Source of the DNA: Gemmatimonadaceae bacterium
Lineage (GTDB): Bacteria > Gemmatimonadota > Gemmatimonadetes > Gemmatimonadales > Gemmatimonadaceae
Direction of reading: 5' to 3'
Length of the DNA: 64,000 nucleotides
Assembly (NCBI GenBank): GCA_035606695.1
Contig: DATNEW010000040.1
Location: 1 to 64,000, forward strand
Shown here: positions 1 through 9,145 of the stretch, piece by piece
Numbering within the stretch: position 1 is the stretch's first letter
How the letters are laid out: the number at the start of each line of letters is the position of its first letter
Translations under genes and position numbers: made by a program
Notes under the pieces: generated by a model
What the model saw: the letters and a program-made list of their open reading frames with translations, nothing else
Told to the model about the DNA's origin: nothing
Database searches by the model: none

Positions 1-460
1 TCGGACCCACCTCCGTCGAGTCGAGCGTGCCGGTGCTCGTCGAATCGCGGAGCAGGATCGTGAGCCGCAGCGGACACGTCGATCCACCGCCGTCGCGCTG
101 CGCATCGGCGAGGCACGACGACAGGTCCACCTGCAGCGGCACCTGCTGGGTTCCGGTAGAAGTGACTGGAACGCTCTGACGCAGCAGCACGACGCGCTCG
201 CCCGACGTTCGCGAGTACGACGCGTCGATGTCGATCGACCGCGCGAGCGCCGCGAGCGCGTGCGTCTCACTCACCGCGAGACTGAGACTGGCGCGCGCGC
301 CGGAGACCGGCGCGCTCACGATCGGTTTGTCGATGCACGCCGTCGCGATCGATGCGACGAACGCGACACTCAGTCCTACGAAGGCCGCGGCGCCGCGCGT
401 ATCATGGTGCGCGCAATCCAGTAACCACCACCGGCGTAGCGCGTTGAGTGAGGCTGCCAT
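1..460 (-). CDS. Lipoprotein of the two-cysteine-module family (3' end outside window)
   Basis: Only the first 153 codons are present; the gene leaves the window on the left. I read it by translating the minus strand from ATG at 460, which follows an AGGGAGA ribosome binding site. A hydrophobic segment ends in a lipobox (IATAC, Cys42), so it is probably an envelope lipoprotein. About 80 residues later comes VPLQVDLSSCLAD and then TCPLRL, the same module seen in the genes at 402, 4509 and 6170. It overlaps the last 59 bases of the preceding gene (402-2177) in another frame, as the apparent last gene of a four-gene operon reading leftwards from 4350. Function unknown; repeat domains like those of its paralogues may follow outside the window. 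Confidence 0.8.
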   Translation of the reverse strand, partial: MAASLNALRRWWLLDCAHHDTRGAAAFVGLSVAFVASIATACIDKPIVSAPVSGARASLSLAVSETHALAALARSIDIDASYSRTSGERVVLLRQSVPVTSTGTQQVPLQVDLSSCLADAQRDGGGSTCPLRLTILLRDSTSTGTLDSTEVGP

Positions 461-2177
461 CACCGATTTCTCCCTGAGTATTGCCACCCCAACAGAGAAG
501 TTGGTGTGTCGTGGTAATGCCGCAGGCGTGCGTGGCGCCCGCGGAGATATATGAGAACTTGGAAGTCGTCGTGACGGCCACCGGCGTGCCGGTGCACGGA
601 AAGACGCCGCCCAGGGTCGTGACATTGCACGTCGTCGCCGGAGGTGGAACCGCGCCGAGTTGGCCCTCGTCGCTCGCACCCCAGCAAAAACCGGTGCCGG
701 CGGTGGAGACACCGCAGGTCACCGTTTCGATGTTGTTCGCCGGTCCCTGTGTGATGCTGGACCACTGAATGCCGCCGCCGACCGTCGTCGGAAGTGTGTC
801 GGGCGTGGTGAGCGATCCGTTGCCCAGCGAGCCGAACTCGTTGATTCCCCAACACACCGCGCTGTTCGTCGTCGTGACGCCGCAGACGTCGACGAAGCTC
901 GACACCAGCGTCTTCAATGGCGGGCTCTGCACGGTCAACGGCGTGGTCGTGAGCCGTGACGTGAAACCGCGTTGGCCGAGCGTCAAGAACGACGATTGTC
1001 CCCAACAATGCGCGATGCCGCTCGCATCGAGACCGCACGCGCTGACGCCGCCGGCGGCGATGACCTGAAATTTGAGACCGCCAGACACGGGCGTCGGCGT
1101 CGTCTTCGTCGATGTGTCGCTGGTCCCCAACCGCCCGGCATTCGCGCCCCAACAGTACGCGCTCGAGTCATCCGCCAGCGCACACGCGAAGGACGACCCA
1201 ACACTCAACGACGTGAACGGAACCGTGCTCGTCACCTGCACGGGAAGTCCTGTCGCGCTCGTGGTGCCGTTGCCCAACTGCCCCGCGGTGTTGACACCCC
1301 AACAGTAGATCGTACGCTTCGTGCTCAGGGCGCACACATGCCGGTCGCCGACACTGATTTGCGTGAATCGCTCCTGAGCCGGCACGGCGACCCGCACGGG
1401 CGTCGGGCTCGACGTTGCTCCTGCGACCCCGAGCTGGCCCAGGTTGTTCGTGCCCCAGCAAAACGGCTGGCCGAATGCATCGAGCGCGCAGGTGAGGAAC
1501 GTGTTCGCGCCGAGTGCATGATCCGGCCGCGGCGACACGAACACGCGACTCGCCGTCACACCCGATGACGTGCGGGTCCTGACCGTCGTCGCACCGACGT
1601 TCCGCGAAACGATGATGCCGCCGCTCGTCACGACCGCCACGCTCGTATCAGAGCTTTCATATGTCGCGCCGGCCGGCGGGGTCGTGGACACCGCGACCGA
1701 ATCACCAAGCCGCACGAACGAGGTGTCGGTGACGTCGGTCGCCACCGACAGCGGCACCGACGCGGTGCCTGGCTGTTCCGCCAGCGGCCCGATCGAGGTG
1801 TTGTCGACGACCGTCCCCGACGCGTCCAGGAAGTCGAGATCCACCACGATGGGGCACGAGTCGCGCGGTCCGATGCGATTCTCATCCGCCAGACACGCCC
1901 TCAAATCGACGGTCAGGGGAATCTGCTGAGTGGTGTCGGACAAATTGAACTTCTGTGACAAGAGAATCGGGCTCGGTCCCGTCGCCGCCACATACAACAC
2001 GATGATGTTCACCGCGGTCGGCGCGGCGCTCGTCTGCCGCGCGAACGACGACGACAGCACCAACCGCAGCTCCGAGCTGGATCTCCCACTCGGCATCGTC
2101 GCCACACTCTTGTCGATACATCCTGCCACGCCGACAACCGCGGCCGCGCCGGCCACATAGCGCCACCAGCGCGTCAT
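402..2177 (-). CDS. RCC1-repeat lipoprotein with Ig-like domain
   Basis: A 591-residue exported lipoprotein. Start ATG at 2177 is chosen over an upstream in-frame ATG because it gives a clean signal peptide with lipobox (VAGC) and overlaps the previous stop as ATGA. Order of parts: signal peptide; two-cysteine module (IPLTVDLRACLAD, then SCPIVV); a Big_2-like Ig segment (SDTSVAVVTSGG); then seven RCC1-type repeats with recurring GDRHVCAL...CWGxNxxGQLG. RCC1 repeats normally build a seven-bladed beta-propeller, so the count suits one complete propeller on the cell surface. RCC1 lipoproteins recur in Gemmatimonadota and Myxococcota, where partners are mostly unknown. Cotranscription with the barrel-type protein at 2174-3385 suggests surface display. 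Ligand or enzymatic activity cannot be told from sequence. Confidence 0.9.
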   Translation of the reverse strand: MTRWWRYVAGAAAVVGVAGCIDKSVATMPSGRSSSELRLVLSSSFARQTSAAPTAVNIIVLYVAATGPSPILLSQKFNLSDTTQQIPLTVDLRACLADENRIGPRDSCPIVVDLDFLDASGTVVDNTSIGPLAEQPGTASVPLSVATDVTDTSFVRLGDSVAVSTTPPAGATYESSDTSVAVVTSGGIIVSRNVGATTVRTRTSSGVTASRVFVSPRPDHALGANTFLTCALDAFGQPFCWGTNNLGQLGVAGATSSPTPVRVAVPAQERFTQISVGDRHVCALSTKRTIYCWGVNTAGQLGNGTTSATGLPVQVTSTVPFTSLSVGSSFACALADDSSAYCWGANAGRLGTSDTSTKTTPTPVSGGLKFQVIAAGGVSACGLDASGIAHCWGQSSFLTLGQRGFTSRLTTTPLTVQSPPLKTLVSSFVDVCGVTTTNSAVCWGINEFGSLGNGSLTTPDTLPTTVGGGIQWSSITQGPANNIETVTCGVSTAGTGFCWGASDEGQLGAVPPPATTCNVTTLGGVFPCTGTPVAVTTTSKFSYISAGATHACGITTTHQLLCWGGNTQGEIGDGSLTQRATPVVVTGLRAP

Positions 2178-3385
2178 CGCGCTTCCTGACGCGCGGCGAT
2201 CGCCCACACGAGCGACAAGCCCATTCCGTTCGTGGAGCTCGTCCCCGTATTGAACTGTCCATATTGCCCGTGCAGCGCGATCCGCGACACCAGCGTGCGC
2301 GACGGCAGATCGACACCGAGCGTAACGCCGCCCGCGCGCACCGCGGTCCCCACGAGCGCATCGGTGAACGACAAACCGGTGTGATAGCGCGCATCGACGC
2401 CAAGGATCAATCCCGTTCCAATGGAGCCGCCGCGAATCCCCTGCAGCGATCCCTCGAGATACGAACCGGCCGAGCCGGACACCTTCGAGCCGCTCTGATC
2501 CGTGAACGCGCTGCGATAGCGCAGACTCATCGTCCCCGACGCGCTCCGCCAACCCGGCACGGCGAGATCATACCGCGCCAGGCCGGTGACCTGCGGTCCG
2601 AGGGTGTAGTCGGACGACGTGTTCGTCGCATCCGGCGTCGTGAGCAGCAGCTTGTCCTTACTGAACACGTCGGCGACGACGAGCATCGCCAGCCGATTGT
2701 CGCCGACGGGACGATCGCTGCCCAAGCTCAAATGCACCGCGGTGCCGGGCGTGACCTTCGTGAGCGACTGCCCGCTCGCCAGCGCGAGCGCGATCGGCGT
2801 GTACTCCGTGCGCTGCTCGACGGATCCCCCGAGTGCGAACGACCAGTCGCCGCTCTCGATGGCCTGCACCGCGCCGAGCGTGACGCCGGTGCCGATGCCA
2901 AGCGCGTTGACCGGCATGCCGAGCGCCGGCGCGCCGATCACCTGGAGCACGTCGGTCTGCTCGCCGTTGAGACCAGTCGTCCCGGTCGGAAGATTGAGCC
3001 CGCCGGTGAGCAGCAGCCGATCGTCGTTGAACGATCCCGACATGCGCAGCTTGACGTCGGTCAGGCCGCTCAGCGTGAGCGATTGGGTCGAATCGCCATT
3101 CTTGGTGCTGACCGAGGTGCGCGCCGCGGCGCCCGTGACGTCGAAGGTCCAACGTTCGTTGAACACCGCGCGAGCGCGCAGCGGCAGCGCGAACTGCTGC
3201 ACGTCGGTCACCCCGCCGGCGCTTTGCGCCAGCGGCGTCGAAAAGTGCCATGCGGTCACCACGGGCGCCAAGCCCCAACTCGCCGACGGCAGCAGCGATT
3301 CCTGCGCCGGCAACACGGCGGCGCCCAGCGCCAGCAGGGCCGGCGCGACGAAGCGTGCAATGTGAGTCGTCCGTGCGCGCGTCAT
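2174..3385 (-). CDS. Probable outer-membrane beta-barrel protein
   Basis: A 403-residue protein with a Sec signal peptide (hydrophobic core about residues 11-25, cleavage near VLPAQ). The mature part alternates short polar turns with strands such as RWTFDVTGAA, LRMSGSFNDD, LAMLVVADVF and GTMSLRYRSAF, without hydrophobic helices, as in outer-membrane porin or transport-type barrels. No family is securely recognised. Its ATG shares a base with the stop of the CsgG-like gene (TAATG), and its stop overlaps the ATG of the RCC1 lipoprotein (ATGA), so the three products are likely made in fixed proportion. It could be a channel or anchor for the lipoproteins of the operon. That role is inferred from position only. 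Confidence 0.75.
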   Translation of the reverse strand: MTRARTTHIARFVAPALLALGAAVLPAQESLLPSASWGLAPVVTAWHFSTPLAQSAGGVTDVQQFALPLRARAVFNERWTFDVTGAAARTSVSTKNGDSTQSLTLSGLTDVKLRMSGSFNDDRLLLTGGLNLPTGTTGLNGEQTDVLQVIGAPALGMPVNALGIGTGVTLGAVQAIESGDWSFALGGSVEQRTEYTPIALALASGQSLTKVTPGTAVHLSLGSDRPVGDNRLAMLVVADVFSKDKLLLTTPDATNTSSDYTLGPQVTGLARYDLAVPGWRSASGTMSLRYRSAFTDQSGSKVSGSAGSYLEGSLQGIRGGSIGTGLILGVDARYHTGLSFTDALVGTAVRAGGVTLGVDLPSRTLVSRIALHGQYGQFNTGTSSTNGMGLSLVWAIAARQEAR

Positions 3386-4350
3386 TAGAAAACCCTCACG
3401 GTGATGAGAAGCGTGAGCACCTGCGACGCCAGGGCCACGTCCGCCGCCTCGGGCGGCTTGGTCACGACCGGCGCGTTGATCGCGGACGCGGTGAGCTCGA
3501 GCACGCGTTGTGTGCCGCGCGAGCGCTCGGACGTACTGGAGGAATTGCCGGCGAGCTGTGTACGCGCCGCGTTGAACGCCACGTCCTGGCGCGCCGCTTC
3601 CTCGAAGTGCGCCGCCGCCGCCGCCGCATCGCCGTGCGCCTCGGCCTCGAGACCCTTACCGAAGGCGACGGTCGCCGCGACGTTGGTCGTTTGCTTCTGC
3701 TCGACCGCGATGCGCTGCGCCGGCGTCAGCGTGATTCCCAGCTCATCGAACACTCGAAGCGCCAGCGCCTTCTCGGCGTCGATGGCGCGGTCGACGGGCG
3801 CGGTGGCCGACACCAGGTTCTGGACGGTGCCGGCGAGCACGTCGACGATGCGCGCGTCGATACGTACGGAGCCGCCCGGCTCGGCGTGCATGTCGCCGAT
3901 CAGCAATCGTCGCGCGCCAACGAGCTTGCCGACGCGCGGGGCGGTGCGCGGATCGACCGTCCCGCGATCGACGAGGTTCAGCTCGCGCATGATCGCGTCG
4001 GTGCGCAGTCGATCGACGATCTGCAGCTCGCTCGACCGCGACAGATCCGTCGTGAGAAACTCGGCCATGGCGAAGCCGAGTGGTTGAAGCAGCGTGTCGC
4101 CTTGATCGACCGTGAAGGGCAGCACGCCGATCGCGCGCGCCGGGATCTTCGCGGGGTCGATCTGTGATTCGCGGTCGAGCGCGCGCTTCGCGTCTCGATC
4201 GGCGTTGGTGATCGCGGCGGCCTGCCGGTTGATCGGGGCGCTGGCGCATGCGGTCGCGAACACACTGGCGAGCGAACCGGCGAACGCGATCGCGGGGACA
4301 CGGCACAGACGGCACAGCCGGACGACATGAGTGGAGCGGCTCGGCATCAT
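3385..4350 (-). CDS. CsgG/TolB-like envelope lipoprotein
   Basis: A protein of about 321 residues. I use the ATG at 4350 (or 4347) because it places a lipobox (ATAC) after a short signal peptide; an upstream in-frame ATG at 4401 would give a 17-residue longer N-terminus. The core (AIGVLPFTV, then LGFAMAEFLTTDLSRS, IVDRLRTDAIMRELNL, VGKLVGARRLLIGDM) is the pattern of CsgG/FlgO/TolB-N proteins: a beta strand, a helix recruiting low-copy partners, then the activity-specific 'VG..LGA..LV.G' strand. The C-terminal 120 residues are helical and alanine-rich, TPR-like. CsgG forms the curli export pore in the outer membrane; whether this divergent relative does so is unproven. It is the first gene of the leftward operon and is divergent from the lipoprotein gene at 4509. 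Confidence 0.8.
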   Translation of the reverse strand: MMPSRSTHVVRLCRLCRVPAIAFAGSLASVFATACASAPINRQAAAITNADRDAKRALDRESQIDPAKIPARAIGVLPFTVDQGDTLLQPLGFAMAEFLTTDLSRSSELQIVDRLRTDAIMRELNLVDRGTVDPRTAPRVGKLVGARRLLIGDMHAEPGGSVRIDARIVDVLAGTVQNLVSATAPVDRAIDAEKALALRVFDELGITLTPAQRIAVEQKQTTNVAATVAFGKGLEAEAHGDAAAAAAHFEEAARQDVAFNAARTQLAGNSSSTSERSRGTQRVLELTASAINAPVVTKPPEAADVALASQVLTLLITVRVF

Positions 4351-4401
4351 CGGACTCGTATTGGCGAGGGTGGGCCAAATTGTGAATCCGGGACGCGCCA
4401 T

Positions 4402-4500
4402 CGCAATGGGCCGCGTGACCTATTGCGACGTGGGCCGCGGTGCACGCAGGTTGGGCCGCCAGAGACTTTACAAAACGCTCATAGGCTGAACGACCCGGAG
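4402..4500. promoter_or_regulatory. Three-site regulatory block between divergent genes
   Basis: Three direct copies of TGGGCCGC lie at 4407, 4431 and 4452 (spacing 24 and 21 bp, about two helical turns each), with CCTATTGCGA between the first two. They are followed by AACGCTCATAGGC at 4474. The same arrangement recurs at 6045-6140 upstream of the paralogous lipoprotein gene. No sigma70 hexamers are convincing. The block lies between the CsgG-like operon (leftward) and the lipoprotein gene at 4509, so it could serve both. Conservation of order and spacing is seen directly; an operator role is inferred. Confidence 0.65.
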
Positions 4501-4508
4501 GCCAGGCG

Positions 4509-6038
4509 ATGCAGACGTGGCGGAGTATCCCCAAGACGGTGGTGTGGGGGGCGGTCATGATGGCGCTGGCCAGCTGCATTGGTCCCGATGCGACGACCGG
4601 CGTCAAGGTTCCCGCGGGCACGGCACGCTTCGCGTTGCGCGCGAACATCACCGCGCCGGCCGCGACGCAGGTGTTTCTCGCGGCGTTCTATGTGAAGAAC
4701 GGCAAGCTGACCGGCATCGATTCGACCGGGGATCTCGACAGCCTCGACATCAATAACGACATCGGCGTGCTGGGCGCCCAGATTGTCGATCTCAAACAAG
4801 CGGCGGGCGATCAGAGCATTCCGCTCTCGGTGAACGTCGGCCCGTGCCTCGCCGACGCGTCGGTGGCGAAGACGAACGGCGGTTGTCCGGTGTTCATTTT
4901 CGCGGAGCTGTTGAAGGGGCAGAACACGCTCCCGGCCAATCCGGTCGACTTCGATCCGGGCGACAACGCTCTCGATGATGACGCGATTGGTCCGGTGTTC
5001 GTAGCGCCCGGCAGTACCGTGTCGATGCCGCGGGCGCTCGAGCTGCACCAGATCTCGAATATCCTCGTGCAGCCGTCTGCGCTCGCGGTGCAAATCGGTC
5101 AATCGACCGTGCTCCAAGCGACGGCCTTCGACAACACCGGTACTCCAGTCGCCAATCCGGGGTTCACGTTTACATCTGCCTCGCCGAGCATCGCTACCGT
5201 CAACGCCGGAGGTGTGGTCACCGGCGTCGCGATCGGTTCGACGACGGTCACCGTCACGGGCGGCGGTCGCAGCATCGCGGTCCCCGTTCAGGTCACTGCG
5301 GCCCCGAACCTCGTCTTGCCGAGTGATACCACGGCTCAATTCACGATCAAGCCGGGTGGGGCGGGAAGCGGCCAGGTATCCATTCCGATCGTGAGCAGTC
5401 TGGCGTCGAGTGGAGTGCAGGCGGCGCTCCAAGCACCGTCGATCGCGTTCCTCGGCGCGGCCACTGGATGGCTGTCCGTTCAACTGTCGTCACCGACCAC
5501 GCCGGCGTCGCTGAACATGGTCGTCACGTCGAGCGCGGCGTCGCTGTCGCCTGGAAGCTATGTCGCGGCGGTCACAGTGAAGTCCACCAATCCATCGGTG
5601 GCGGCGCGCACGGTCGTCGCGGTGCTCACGGTGTCGTCAACCGCCAGCGTTTCGGGCGCGACCAGCATCACGTTCAACGGCTCCAACTTCTCGCCGAACT
5701 GCACCTGGACGTTCGCGACGACGTCGCAGTTGCAGATGACCGTGACGCCGAGCGCCGATGGGAGTGTGAGCGGCACCGTACAGCTTTCCGGAAACACGAC
5801 GTTTGCGCCGGCCGCGTCCGGGACGGGCTGCAACGACGGGGGTGGCGCGTACTCCGTTTCGTTGCCCGTGACCGGAACGGCGTCGCATCTCACGTTCACC
5901 GGCGCGATCGTGAGCTGGTTGACCGCGACGTTCTCGGGATCGCTGAGCAACGGGGCCGTGACGGGCACGCTGACGCTGTCCTTCACTGAGCCGCCCGCGT
6001 CGTCGGGATCGGGCAGCGCATTGGTCACTATGAAGTGA
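4509..6038 (+). CDS. Lipoprotein with Ig-like and BACON-like domains
   Basis: A 509-residue exported lipoprotein. It starts at ATG 4509 behind a GGAGG-like site, and a signal peptide ends in lipobox ALASC (Cys about 23). Next come the family module IPLSVNVGPCLAD plus GCPVFIF, a bacterial Ig-like (Big_2) domain (QPSALAVQIGQSTVLQATAF to VTVTGGG), and a second beta-rich region containing WLSVQLSS and SPGSYVAAVTVKST, which resembles BACON/Ig folds. A C-terminal beta domain contains two cysteines (NCTWTF, GTGCNDGGG) and resembles the stand-alone lipoprotein at 47989-48441. It probably sits on the outer surface and binds polymers or partner proteins. Ligand unknown. It reads away from the CsgG-like operon and is followed by the related gene at 6170. 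Confidence 0.85.
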   Translation: MQTWRSIPKTVVWGAVMMALASCIGPDATTGVKVPAGTARFALRANITAPAATQVFLAAFYVKNGKLTGIDSTGDLDSLDINNDIGVLGAQIVDLKQAAGDQSIPLSVNVGPCLADASVAKTNGGCPVFIFAELLKGQNTLPANPVDFDPGDNALDDDAIGPVFVAPGSTVSMPRALELHQISNILVQPSALAVQIGQSTVLQATAFDNTGTPVANPGFTFTSASPSIATVNAGGVVTGVAIGSTTVTVTGGGRSIAVPVQVTAAPNLVLPSDTTAQFTIKPGGAGSGQVSIPIVSSLASSGVQAALQAPSIAFLGAATGWLSVQLSSPTTPASLNMVVTSSAASLSPGSYVAAVTVKSTNPSVAARTVVAVLTVSSTASVSGATSITFNGSNFSPNCTWTFATTSQLQMTVTPSADGSVSGTVQLSGNTTFAPAASGTGCNDGGGAYSVSLPVTGTASHLTFTGAIVSWLTATFSGSLSNGAVTGTLTLSFTEPPASSGSGSALVTMK

Positions 6039-6044
6039 ACGACA

Positions 6045-6140
6045 CGAATGGGGCGGGTGGCCTATTGCGAGATGGGCCGCCCGTTTCACACGTTAGGCCG
6101 CCGGCTGTCAGAGAACGCTCATAGGCCGAACGATCCCTGT
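6045..6140 (+). promoter_or_regulatory. Second copy of the three-site regulatory block
   Basis: TGGGGCGG at 6049, TGGGCCGC at 6073 and TAGGCCGC at 6094 repeat the 24/21-bp spacing of the block at 4402-4500. CCTATTGCGA (6061) sits between sites one and two and AACGCTCATAGGC (6114) follows. Between the two copies the conserved stretches are nearly identical while the bases in between differ, which suggests that protein contacts are preserved rather than a recent copy event. It lies between the stop at 6038 and the start at 6170, giving the second lipoprotein gene its own control region. Confidence 0.65.
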
Positions 6141-6169
6141 CATTCTCCTTTCCTTCGCCGCTGGATGAG

Positions 6170-8554
6170 ATGCCGAATCCCGTCGTAAGCCGCCGTCTTC
6201 GCGGACTGTTGGGCGCCGCCGCCGCCGCCTCGCTCGTCGTGCTCGCCGCGTGTCTCGACAAGGAAGTGCCGACGCAGAGCGTCGTGGGGTCGCCGCGTGT
6301 GAATTTTCAGTTGGCCGCCAGCTTTCAGCGGCAGAACGCGCCGTCGGCGCGAACGATCGACGTGAATGTCGGGTATTCGCAGCAGGGCAAGTTCGTGCAG
6401 CTCGTGCGGGATACCGTCCCTGCCGTCGCGGGAACGACGGTGTCGGTTCCGTTGAGTGTGGATCTGACGACGTGCCTCGCCGATACGCTGCGTGACAAGA
6501 GGCCGGGCGGTGGGTGTCCGTTGCTCGTGAGTGTGGCGCTGCGCGACTCCGTGAAATTCGCGCTCGACTCGGTCATGCTCACGGGGAGCGCGAATGTCGG
6601 GAAGCCGCCGATTTTGCCGCCGGTCGATCTGGCGAACACGCGGTTTACAGTTCGTGAATGGGTGGAGGATGATCCGCTGCGGCTCGGCGGGGCGGTTCCT
6701 ACCTTGAGTACCGGGGTCGTCGGCCTCGCATCCGGGTCAGGACTTCCGACGCTGTATTCCGCGATGACCGACACGAGCGGCGATCCGGCGCTGGGCATCT
6801 TTCAGAACGGCTCGTGGCAGTTCGTCCGGAGCCATCTGGGACGCGGAAATGGCTTCAACGGCATTGCACCGCTCGCGGCGAACGACGTCTGGATTGCCGC
6901 CAATTCCGGACTGTATCATTACGACGGCGCCACCTTCACCGCCGTCTCCCAGGTTCGCGACTCATTGCTCAGTGTCGCCGCGCTCGTCACGCCGGGCGGT
7001 GGCCGATTCATCGTCGCGGGCGGATTTGGCGGCATCATATGGCAAGGCGACGGCGCGACGTGGACGAAAAAGGTTGTCGCGACAGCAACCGAAGTGATCA
7101 ACGAGACCTGCGTGACGGGTCCGAACGAAGCGTTTGCGACGTCCGTCAACAGCGCCACCAACACCATCGCGAATACCGCCACCGGTAGTCTGTTTCACTT
7201 CAACGGCACGGCGTGGAGTGGAACGCTAACCAGCATTCCGAACTTCAAGATCGAGCTACAGTGCCCAGCGCCCGGTATCGCGTACGCGATCGCGAGCGGG
7301 TCCGGCACATTTCGATGGAATGGAACGGGCTGGGTCGGATCCGGCGTGCCCGGCTTGCCAGGTCGTCTCTTCGACTGGGGCATAACGTCCCCGAGCGAGA
7401 TGTACGCATACGGGGATTCGAACGCGATCAGCCGTGCGTTCTATGTCGGCACCGGCACCTCATGGCGCGAGGTCGGGCGTTCGTCGTTCACGCAGGCACT
7501 CGGCTTCATCGGTGGTCTCGAGATGTGGGCGGACCCGCGCAGCGGCGCCGCGTACCATCTGAGCGCGTTCGGCAGGCTCGAGCAAGTCACGCCAAACGGA
7601 TACCATGTGCTCAGCTATATCCCCGCGATGCGCGATCTCATCGTCACGTCGCCGACGAGCGCATTCGCCGTGGGCTGGAATCTCTTTCTCGCGCGATGGA
7701 ACGGCTCGTCGTGGACGGTCGACGCTCCTCCGGCCGGAACACCCGGCGTTCGCATCCTGCAGGGTGTGTGGAGCGATGGGCCGTCGAACGCATGGGCCGT
7801 GGGCGGGGCGAGCACGATTCTCCGATGGAATGGCACTGCCTGGTCGGTGGTCAGCGACGTGCTGAAACCGATCACCGGCATCACCGACAACTACAACGCG
7901 GTGTGGGGAGTTGGGTCGTCGGTCATCATGGTTGGCGACACCGGCATCGTCGCCTGCCAATCATCAGGTGGAGTCTGTAGTCGCCAAACGGGCCTCCCGG
8001 GCGCCGGAAGCTTGTTCAGCGTTTGGGGCACGGCCGCGAACAACGTCATCGCGGTCGGCCAGAAGGGACGCATTCTACACTTCGACGGCACCTCGTGGTC
8101 GCTGGTCGAAAGTCCGACCAGCCGCACCCTCGCGCGCGTATGGGGCAGCTCGGCGAGCGACGTGTGGGCCGTCGGGGACAGCGTCCTCATTCATTTCGAC
8201 GGCACCAAATGGGCGAACGTCCCGATGACTGGTGCGCTCCAGGCTGTGCAAAGTCCAGCGCCGTCGACGGTGGCTTCGAATACGTTCCAACTCGGTTTGT
8301 GGGGGAGCGGGCCGAAGGACGTCTACGTCGGTGGAGAAAACGGCCACATCGCCCGTTTCGACGGCGTCGCATGGAGCGACATGACTGGGCAGTCCTCGGC
8401 GCATCGCGTCCTCGCGATCTCCGGATCAGCGGGCTTCGGCGCGATGGCCATACTGGAATCGCAAACCAACCGCCCTGGCCCGACCTTCCTGCGCGGCGTC
8501 GGCGCGAACGGCGGCTTCGGCGCCGTCATGACACCGCCGGCCGTGTGGCCGTAG
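6170..8554 (+). CDS. Large lipoprotein with WG/DVWAVG propeller repeats
   Basis: A 794-residue lipoprotein with a signal peptide ending in lipobox VLAAC (Cys about 28). The two-cysteine module follows (VPLSVDLTTCLAD, GGCPLLVSV). From about residue 190 to the end come at least seven propeller-like blades with variants of VWGxxxxDVWAVG and a HFDGTSW-type strand, for example SSASDVWAVG and GPKDVYVGGENG. Such blades are common in predicted surface proteins of Myxococcota and Gemmatimonadota and form beta-propellers. The catalytic or binding role is unknown. Its own upstream regulatory block matches that of the gene at 4509, so the two are probably co-regulated paralogues with different outer domains. 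It is convergent with the second CsgG-like gene, 15 bp away. Confidence 0.85.
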   Translation: MPNPVVSRRLRGLLGAAAAASLVVLAACLDKEVPTQSVVGSPRVNFQLAASFQRQNAPSARTIDVNVGYSQQGKFVQLVRDTVPAVAGTTVSVPLSVDLTTCLADTLRDKRPGGGCPLLVSVALRDSVKFALDSVMLTGSANVGKPPILPPVDLANTRFTVREWVEDDPLRLGGAVPTLSTGVVGLASGSGLPTLYSAMTDTSGDPALGIFQNGSWQFVRSHLGRGNGFNGIAPLAANDVWIAANSGLYHYDGATFTAVSQVRDSLLSVAALVTPGGGRFIVAGGFGGIIWQGDGATWTKKVVATATEVINETCVTGPNEAFATSVNSATNTIANTATGSLFHFNGTAWSGTLTSIPNFKIELQCPAPGIAYAIASGSGTFRWNGTGWVGSGVPGLPGRLFDWGITSPSEMYAYGDSNAISRAFYVGTGTSWREVGRSSFTQALGFIGGLEMWADPRSGAAYHLSAFGRLEQVTPNGYHVLSYIPAMRDLIVTSPTSAFAVGWNLFLARWNGSSWTVDAPPAGTPGVRILQGVWSDGPSNAWAVGGASTILRWNGTAWSVVSDVLKPITGITDNYNAVWGVGSSVIMVGDTGIVACQSSGGVCSRQTGLPGAGSLFSVWGTAANNVIAVGQKGRILHFDGTSWSLVESPTSRTLARVWGSSASDVWAVGDSVLIHFDGTKWANVPMTGALQAVQSPAPSTVASNTFQLGLWGSGPKDVYVGGENGHIARFDGVAWSDMTGQSSAHRVLAISGSAGFGAMAILESQTNRPGPTFLRGVGANGGFGAVMTPPAVWP

Positions 8555-8569
8555 CGCGTCGATCTCGCG

Positions 8570-9145
8570 CTACGGCTTCTTCGCCGTCAGCGAATCGACC
8601 CACCGCTGCGCGTTCTTGGTCGACGGCCGCGCCGCACCTTGCTGTTGCGGCGCGAACGCGACACCAACCGCCGCGGTGAGCTTTCGATCCATGCGATCGA
8701 TGAGATCGAACAGATCGTCGACTTTGCCTTCGATCGTTTCACGAAACTCGATCTCCGACGTCTCGACGTTCACCGATCGCACGTCGAATCGCATGCGATT
8801 TTTCGGATCGATGAGAAAGCCGCCGGTCACGAAGTGCCGAACGCCGAGCACCTTGCCCAGGCGGACGGCCGTCTCGGGATCGACCTGCCCCGATGCCGCG
8901 AGCCGTTGCTCGGCGAGCAGGTCGCTCAATCGCGCGCGATCGGCCAGGCGAATGTTCGGATTCGACGCCAGCGCGTTCGTGAGCAGTTCCGAGATGCCGC
9001 GTCCCAGCGCCGCGTAGTCGCCGGGGCGCGGCGTCATCGAGCCGCCGGTGAAATTCATCACCGCAACCGTGGGTGCTTCGCTCTGCGCGAACGTCAGAGC
9101 GGGCGCGAGAAGCGCGGCCGAGAGAATGACCGAGGTGTACCGCAT
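8570..9145 (-). CDS. CsgG-family exported protein (short)
   Basis: A 191-residue protein with a cleavable signal peptide (TFAQ at about residue 20). The mature part, starting TVAVMNFTGG, then LGRGISELLTNALAS, LADRARLSDLLAEQRL, VDPETAVRLGKVLGVRHFVTGGFL, is a clear CsgG-type sequence. It is shorter than E. coli CsgG (about 277 residues) and lacks a lipobox cysteine, so it is unlikely to form the same lipidated pore. It ends 15 bp from the convergent lipoprotein gene at 6170-8554. It may work with that lipoprotein set, as the longer CsgG-like protein at 3385-4350 appears to; this is inference from proximity. Confidence 0.85.
   Translation of the reverse strand: MRYTSVILSAALLAPALTFAQSEAPTVAVMNFTGGSMTPRPGDYAALGRGISELLTNALASNPNIRLADRARLSDLLAEQRLAASGQVDPETAVRLGKVLGVRHFVTGGFLIDPKNRMRFDVRSVNVETSEIEFRETIEGKVDDLFDLIDRMDRKLTAAVGVAFAPQQQGAARPSTKNAQRWVDSLTAKKP

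Follow-up and report, generated by a model that had tools for sequence, protein, structure and literature searches.

Slam, which brings lipoproteins to the bacterial surface, is a single polypeptide that combines two tetratricopeptide repeats (TPRs) with a predicted 14-stranded barrel (PMC7857515), and about 52% of the loci that encode it adjoin a gene with a lipobox (PMC5449769). It is missing in other phyla that display surface lipoproteins, which suggests that there are further translocation systems (PMC7857515). In PelB/PelC, a 16-stranded barrel comes with TPR helices and with lipid-anchored lipoproteins that ring its periplasmic rim (PMC12141448). Here we describe a gene cassette at the beginning of a 64,000-nucleotide stretch of DNA from a Gemmatimonadaceae bacterium (bases 1-64000 of C40, a contig in a genome of 5.9 Mb, hereafter the window), in which lipoproteins sharing an N-terminal module with two cysteines lie beside a predicted outer-membrane beta-barrel and two CsgG-like proteins. 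As an envelope system, the cassette comprises four to five genes and is conserved. We give about an even chance to the reading in which the module serves as a constant docking domain and the whole as a dedicated system of the Gemmatimonadota for docking outer-membrane lipoproteins and displaying them at the surface. The genes of the cassette in the window are the following.

2..457, minus strand: LP1, lipoprotein with the module (2-340); the C-terminal part is lost at the contig end and the start is uncertain, near 457.
402..2177, minus strand: LP2, lipoprotein with the module (1740-2123) and RCC1 repeats.
2174..3385, minus strand: BB, predicted outer-membrane beta-barrel (AlphaFold predicted local distance difference test, pLDDT, 91.7; best structural matches mostly with 16 strands).
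3385..4347, minus strand: CsgG-B, predicted lipoprotein with a CsgG/TolB_N-like domain and TPRs; the start is uncertain (4347, 4350 or 4401).
4509..6038, plus strand: LP3, lipoprotein with the module (4572-5042) and a Big_2 immunoglobulin (Ig)-like domain.
6170..8554, plus strand: LP4, lipoprotein with the module (6248-6634) and DVWAVG propeller-like repeats.
8570..9145, minus strand: CsgG-A, soluble CsgG-like protein predicted to be exported; it converges with LP4 and, unlike its relatives, has no TPR tail.

The module is about 125 residues long. The alignment of the four window copies has 14 invariant columns, among them the lipobox cysteine and two further cysteines, C77 and C90. When 37 modules (about 18-34% identical to that of LP2) were aligned, these three cysteines were the only fully invariant residues, with L78, D107 and G119 near invariant. 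The lipobox cysteine is present in 37 of 37, with a hydrophobic stretch before it (a few further frames, in which the profile match starts inside the module, were left out of this alignment). Given the lipobox at the start of every module protein, these lipoproteins should be lipidated at the first cysteine. The AlphaFold2 model of one window module is a seven-stranded beta-sandwich with pLDDT >90 over most of the core. In this model C77 is located in a short helix and C90, 13 residues away, at the start of the next strand, the pair bracketing one loop; the two cysteines presumably form a disulfide. No consistent family appeared when the 37 members were searched against Pfam at E 0.1, and a search of the PDB sequences with the module found no relative. 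The best matches in structure comparison were common beta-sandwiches at a Z score of about 8 or less, which is background level. They included two pilotin lipoproteins, ExsB (2yjl, Z 8.1) and an alternative pilotin of the type II secretion system (5wec, Z 7.2); such pilotin-like matches, at Z 7-8 with only 4-16% identity, provide a possible lead and not an assignment.

The initial annotation had proposed four lipoproteins with a common module, and the exact motif [VI]PLxV[DN][LV]xxCLAD...CP[LIV] is indeed confined to their four frames among all the open frames of the window. The idea of a constant module that bears two invariant cysteines and is combined with differing outer domains is borne out: the module is a real domain and widely shared. 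A known fibronectin-like fold devoid of conserved cysteines, which would have spoken against it, is not what we see; the fold is a generic beta-sandwich, but its cysteines are invariant. Contig C40 begins at base 1 of the window, so that the assembly truncates LP1, its first gene: it does contain the module of a lipoprotein, as claimed, but its outer domain cannot be read. The gene at 402 is a lipoprotein too, corrected here to 402-2177 on the minus strand. The two CsgG-type genes reported among the lipoproteins correspond to 3385-4347 and 8570-9145, both on the minus strand and both matching PF03783, and the barrel-like gene to 2174-3385 on the same strand, predicted to encode an outer-membrane barrel. 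With regard to the outer domains, Pfam recognised RCC1 in LP2 and Big_2 in LP3, as had been suggested. A BACON domain was not called in LP3, and the propeller of LP4 gave only sub-threshold Pfam matches and is best described as propeller-like.

How general the cassette is was examined in the Gemmatimonadota only (soil and groundwater bacteria), to which all genome searches were restricted. A profile of the window module detected five copies in the entire 5.9 Mb genome: the four window genes plus a diverged copy on contig C31. Over the window genome and its relatives it gave 16 matches, in 8 of 59 genomes. The scan of 298 genomes of the phylum gave at least 41 module genes in 30 genomes, a lower bound because no more than 13 candidates per genome were scored; the module gene of locus L128 was missed when its genome was scanned among the 59 and found in the locus annotation. 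The enrichment of the module beside CsgG-like genes, the check proposed with the initial annotation, was confirmed in these 298 genomes: 37 of the 41 module genes found have a CsgG-like gene within 10 kb on the same contig, where about 0.7 would be expected (at a density of about 3.5 CsgG matches per 4.3 Mb genome; the genomes come from related species, and the nominal probability is not to be taken literally). Along the same lines, the barrel was detected in 124 of the 298 genomes, yet in 29 of the 30 that have the module (hypergeometric probability 2e-11, before any correction for kinship).

We have annotated the fetched loci with profiles of the four families (module, barrel, CsgG-A and CsgG-B). 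The usual order is CsgG-B > BB > module lipoprotein < CsgG-A, the barrel being mostly directly upstream of the module gene. We examined 46 module genes in these loci: a barrel lies no more than 1.5 kb away from 33 of them, and CsgG-A or CsgG-B is present in the stretch around 40. Most cassettes outside the window have one lipoprotein per barrel; the window has four lipoproteins beside one barrel. Four module genes stand alone (G000:C31, G032:C322, G025:C50 and G258:C3), and three of these four genomes carry a cassette, or a CsgG-B/barrel/CsgG-A set, elsewhere. The first of them is the fifth, diverged module protein of the window genome (L021:11606-14227, minus strand), which has RCC1 repeats and lies far from CsgG-like genes, 1.8 kb from the contig end.

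A trivial explanation for these neighbourhoods would be coincidence, that is, unrelated envelope genes kept side by side by local synteny. All the species come from one phylum and some of the linkage is inherited. Against this, the cassette recurs in many genera, with two copies in several genomes, its flanking genes mostly do not cluster across loci, and the same parts are kept when the gene order is rearranged (L027, L111, L113 and L128; L121 is also rearranged). In a tree of 43 barrels, those flanked by the module stand apart from the rest, with 2 label changes versus 7.5 in shuffles. One of the two changes is L130, whose barrel belongs to a cassette interrupted by contig ends (G078); support for the deeper split in this tree is weak. 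Pairwise distances were correlated for module and barrel (r 0.90), barrel and CsgG-B (0.82) and module and CsgG-B (0.74), and in the six genomes with two cassettes the true pairing of module and barrel ranks 1 of 64 swaps. The barrel tree and this co-divergence also speak against coincidence, which we regard as very improbable. The co-divergence shows that the components are inherited as a unit and fits contact between them. It is the barrel, and not the CsgG-like proteins, that is the constant membrane partner of the module. Of the original view of the module as a sorting or docking domain, the docking part finds indirect support in the co-divergence and in the exclusive barrel subfamily; export is inferred.

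What varies is the remainder of the lipoprotein. At least four kinds of outer domain follow the module: RCC1 (window, L021, L111, L112 and L121), propeller-like (window, L030, L115-L119 and L122), Ig-like (window, L025, L026, L113 and L128) and InlB-like repeats, which make up the largest group. This diversity, together with two RCC1 proteins of the window genome that have no module (contigs C34 and C43), led us to reject the module as a part of the RCC1 or Ig families. The cysteine counts of the InlB-like parts (L024, L097-L109) are often multiples of four (20, 24, 28, 32), which suggests that they could be four-cysteine, disulfide-rich extracellular repeats. The window barrel is nearest to barrels that accompany propeller-like lipoproteins, and the lipoprotein of its own operon (LP2) is RCC1-like; this mismatch indicates that the barrel is matched to the module and not to the outer domain.

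The AlphaFold model of BB (mean pLDDT 91.7, predicted template modelling score 0.86) is an outer-membrane barrel, with CdiB, PelB, OprB, BamA and FhaC among its best structural matches, most of them 16-stranded barrels. PelB of PelBC is the second-best match (Z 18.6, 272 residues, 4.4 A), tied with other barrels. At the sequence level, comparison of BB with the PDB gave nothing meaningful and a search with it found one named relative, in a groundwater metagenome-assembled genome of Gemmatimonadetes. Among 41 members of the barrel family, none matched the Slam barrel (DUF560) in Pfam at E 0.1, BB also being devoid of TPRs, and two weakly matched families of the Phenol_MetA_deg / OMP_b-brl type (best E 0.0013).

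These porin-type matches in a few members, as well as the confident barrel prediction, would also agree with a stable outer-membrane complex in which nothing is exported. The lipoproteins would arrive by the general route and the module would dock on the barrel and CsgG-B, making the lipoprotein a periplasmic partner or a surface lid, as in the uptake pairs of barrel and lipoprotein; the outer domains would bind ligands and the barrel would pass small molecules. The single lipoprotein per barrel of most other cassettes is what a 1:1 complex would give, and the same co-divergence data apply to it. However, the four lipoproteins per barrel in the window and the lone modules in genomes with a cassette better fit a shared machine, and neither TonB-type nor SusC/D-type domains were called in the Pfam-scanned proteins. 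We consider this stable complex less likely than docking and display, to which it is the main rival.

The CsgG-like proteins of the cassette fall into two families, CsgG-A and CsgG-B, homologous to each other (hhalign E 7e-32) and composed of a CsgG/TolB_N-like domain followed in most members by TPR helices. Nearly all members of CsgG-B have a lipobox cysteine; in CsgG-A the signal ends in a conserved Ala-Gln and there is no lipobox. The window CsgG-A stops before the TPR tail of its close relatives and may be shortened or degenerate. PF03783 scored 53.0 and 31.4 bits in the two window proteins versus a cut-off of 20.8; no other Pfam family scores better for CsgG-A, and for CsgG-B none but PF03783 passes its cut-off. 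In CsgG-B there is in addition a weak match to TPR_Slam in Pfam. Compared with PDB sequences, both proteins found TPR proteins, and CsgG-A also CsgG itself (E 0.06).

A PF03783 match of this kind is what one would expect if a ring of CsgG-like subunits exported the lipoproteins through a channel similar to that of curli. Nevertheless, the match covers only profile positions 34-97 (3385-4347) and 6-97 (8570-9145) of 210 in the window, and throughout the cassette proteins it ends at about position 97-105. Lengths were compared using the positions of the membrane hairpins of E. coli CsgG. From the glycine that closes the first half to the turn after the last shared strand there are about 20 residues in the window CsgG-A versus about 40 in E. 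coli CsgG. This leaves no room for the first hairpin; the turn itself is conserved (VETSEI in CsgG-A, VSTGEI in CsgG), and the stretch after it is also shorter in the window protein. Judging from their sequences, CsgG-A and CsgG-B appear too short for the two membrane hairpins of CsgG and a curli-type pore is not supported. Partners of the csgE/F/A/B type were not called in the subset of neighbours covered by the Pfam scans, and a curli-like channel seems to us scarcely credible. The missing hairpin length and the TPR ends make the CsgG-like proteins look like periplasmic helpers and not like an export pore. The dedicated export or anchoring apparatus of the initial annotation must be qualified: the CsgG-like proteins are linked to the module genes, but they do not look like a pore, and the constant membrane partner is the barrel.

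Beside CsgG-A, usually head-to-head with it, there is a Ser/Thr kinase in about 24 of 29 CsgG-A loci (within 600 bp in 22 of the 29, and next door by inspection in L022 and L095), mostly with one clear transmembrane segment (for example L023:4133-5959, L024:13063-14922 and L028:13939-15696). This neighbour raises the prospect of envelope signalling or cell-wall coordination, with the CsgG-like proteins as LpoB/TolB-type partners, the lipoproteins as sensors and the kinase reading the complex. Weak matches to LpoB and TolB profiles do occur in the CsgG-like proteins and would go in this direction; they are, however, mostly below the curated cut-offs. Moreover, the nearest kinase to the window cassette is 52 kb away, and both CsgG-A and an adjacent kinase are lacking in several CsgG-B/barrel/lipoprotein loci, all of which makes this explanation improbable.

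As for the arrangement of the genes in the window, they are read on the minus strand in the order CsgG-B, BB, LP2 and LP1. The stop of CsgG-B overlaps the ATG of BB (TAATG) and the stop of BB that of LP2 (ATGA). LP3 and LP4, on the plus strand, are divergent from CsgG-B. None of the window cassette proteins has an NCBIfam family above its cut-off, no RNA families were found in the window, and its scan for promoters and terminators gave signals at or near shuffle level.

Relatives of the CsgG/barrel pair are found in other contexts. A paralogous pair of TPR-CsgG and barrel, accompanied by no module lipoprotein, occurs in L034 (G000:C9), L124, L125, L127 and L129, mostly syntenic and beside genes for a RadA/DnaB-type ATPase and an ABC exporter. 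In L123 (5707-7498) and L126 (1251-2991), the translations indicate that genes for a Crp-like regulator and a metallo-beta-lactamase-fold protein replace the module lipoprotein.

Coming back to docking and surface display, we can picture its steps as follows. A disulfide formed in the periplasm would link C77 and C90. CsgG-B, fixed by its lipid anchor to the inner face of the outer membrane, would hold the newly arrived lipoprotein at the barrel with the help of its TPR helices. The module would then bind the barrel, which would let the RCC1, propeller, InlB-like or Ig-like domain reach the surface and stay there. One barrel could serve several cargoes, as suggested by the four module genes of the window and by the module genes that stand alone in genomes with a cassette at another site. 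CsgG-A would assist as a soluble protein of the periplasm, and regulation would fall to the membrane kinase that accompanies it in most cassettes. The more specific version, a surface-lipoprotein exporter of a class not described before, in which the barrel and a lipid-anchored CsgG-like/TPR adaptor recognise the disulfide-closed module and bring lipoproteins with interchangeable outer domains to the surface, independently of the Slam, BAM-type and Bacteroidota routes, is tentative, and we would put it at rather less than an even chance.

Several observations count against display through the barrel. L123 and L126 are related CsgG-B/barrel/CsgG-A loci without a module lipoprotein and, with the paralogous pair, imply that the CsgG/barrel pair has uses that need no such cargo. 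Conversely, one genome (G258) has a module lipoprotein with no detected barrel or CsgG-like gene. Linkage alone could give the co-divergence, with no need for contact. Finally, the capacity of the barrel to pass a polypeptide chain is putative.

The crossing of the outer membrane by lipoproteins is an open question outside the Proteobacteria, and the cassette, with its defined barrel, adaptor and cargo tag, gives a means to address it. Even if it were not an exporter, it would remain a conserved envelope system that includes an undescribed domain, and the envelope of the Gemmatimonadota has been little studied. No paper describing the cassette turned up in the open-licence literature. Lipoproteins of the pilotin/YscW and TssJ types, which are small, outer-membrane and of beta-sandwich build, recall the module, though at fold scores that common sandwiches also reach; they do not match it in sequence, and the module comes with large additional domains and lies beside a barrel instead of a secretin. 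With the CsgG curli channel (type VIII) the cassette shares the CsgG-like domain, the N-terminal lipobox of CsgG-B and the recognition by PF03783 above cut-off. It differs in the lack of hairpin length, the extra TPR tail and the separate barrel, and no curli genes were noted.

The resemblance to Slam (DUF560) lies in a TPR part and an outer-membrane barrel next to lipoproteins that have a common domain and are otherwise variable. In the cassette, though, TPR and barrel are separate proteins and the TPR partner (CsgG-B) bears a CsgG-like domain; also, predicted Slam cargoes share an eight-stranded barrel domain and not an N-terminal two-cysteine sandwich. PelC has a fold of the CsgG/TolB type, and the similarity of BB to the PelB barrel and the presence of TPR and lipoprotein parts bring PelB/PelC to mind. 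In this case the TPR of the cassette sits on the lipoprotein instead of the barrel, which has a lipoprotein gene as its neighbour. PelC did not come up at the sequence level, and no polysaccharide genes were called among the Pfam-scanned neighbours. As far as they can be read from sequence, the features that would identify a Slam system or a CsgG channel appear to be missing from the cassette, save the recognition by PF03783. Our best reading, by analogy, is that the cassette may work like Slam or PelB/PelC and seems to belong to neither.

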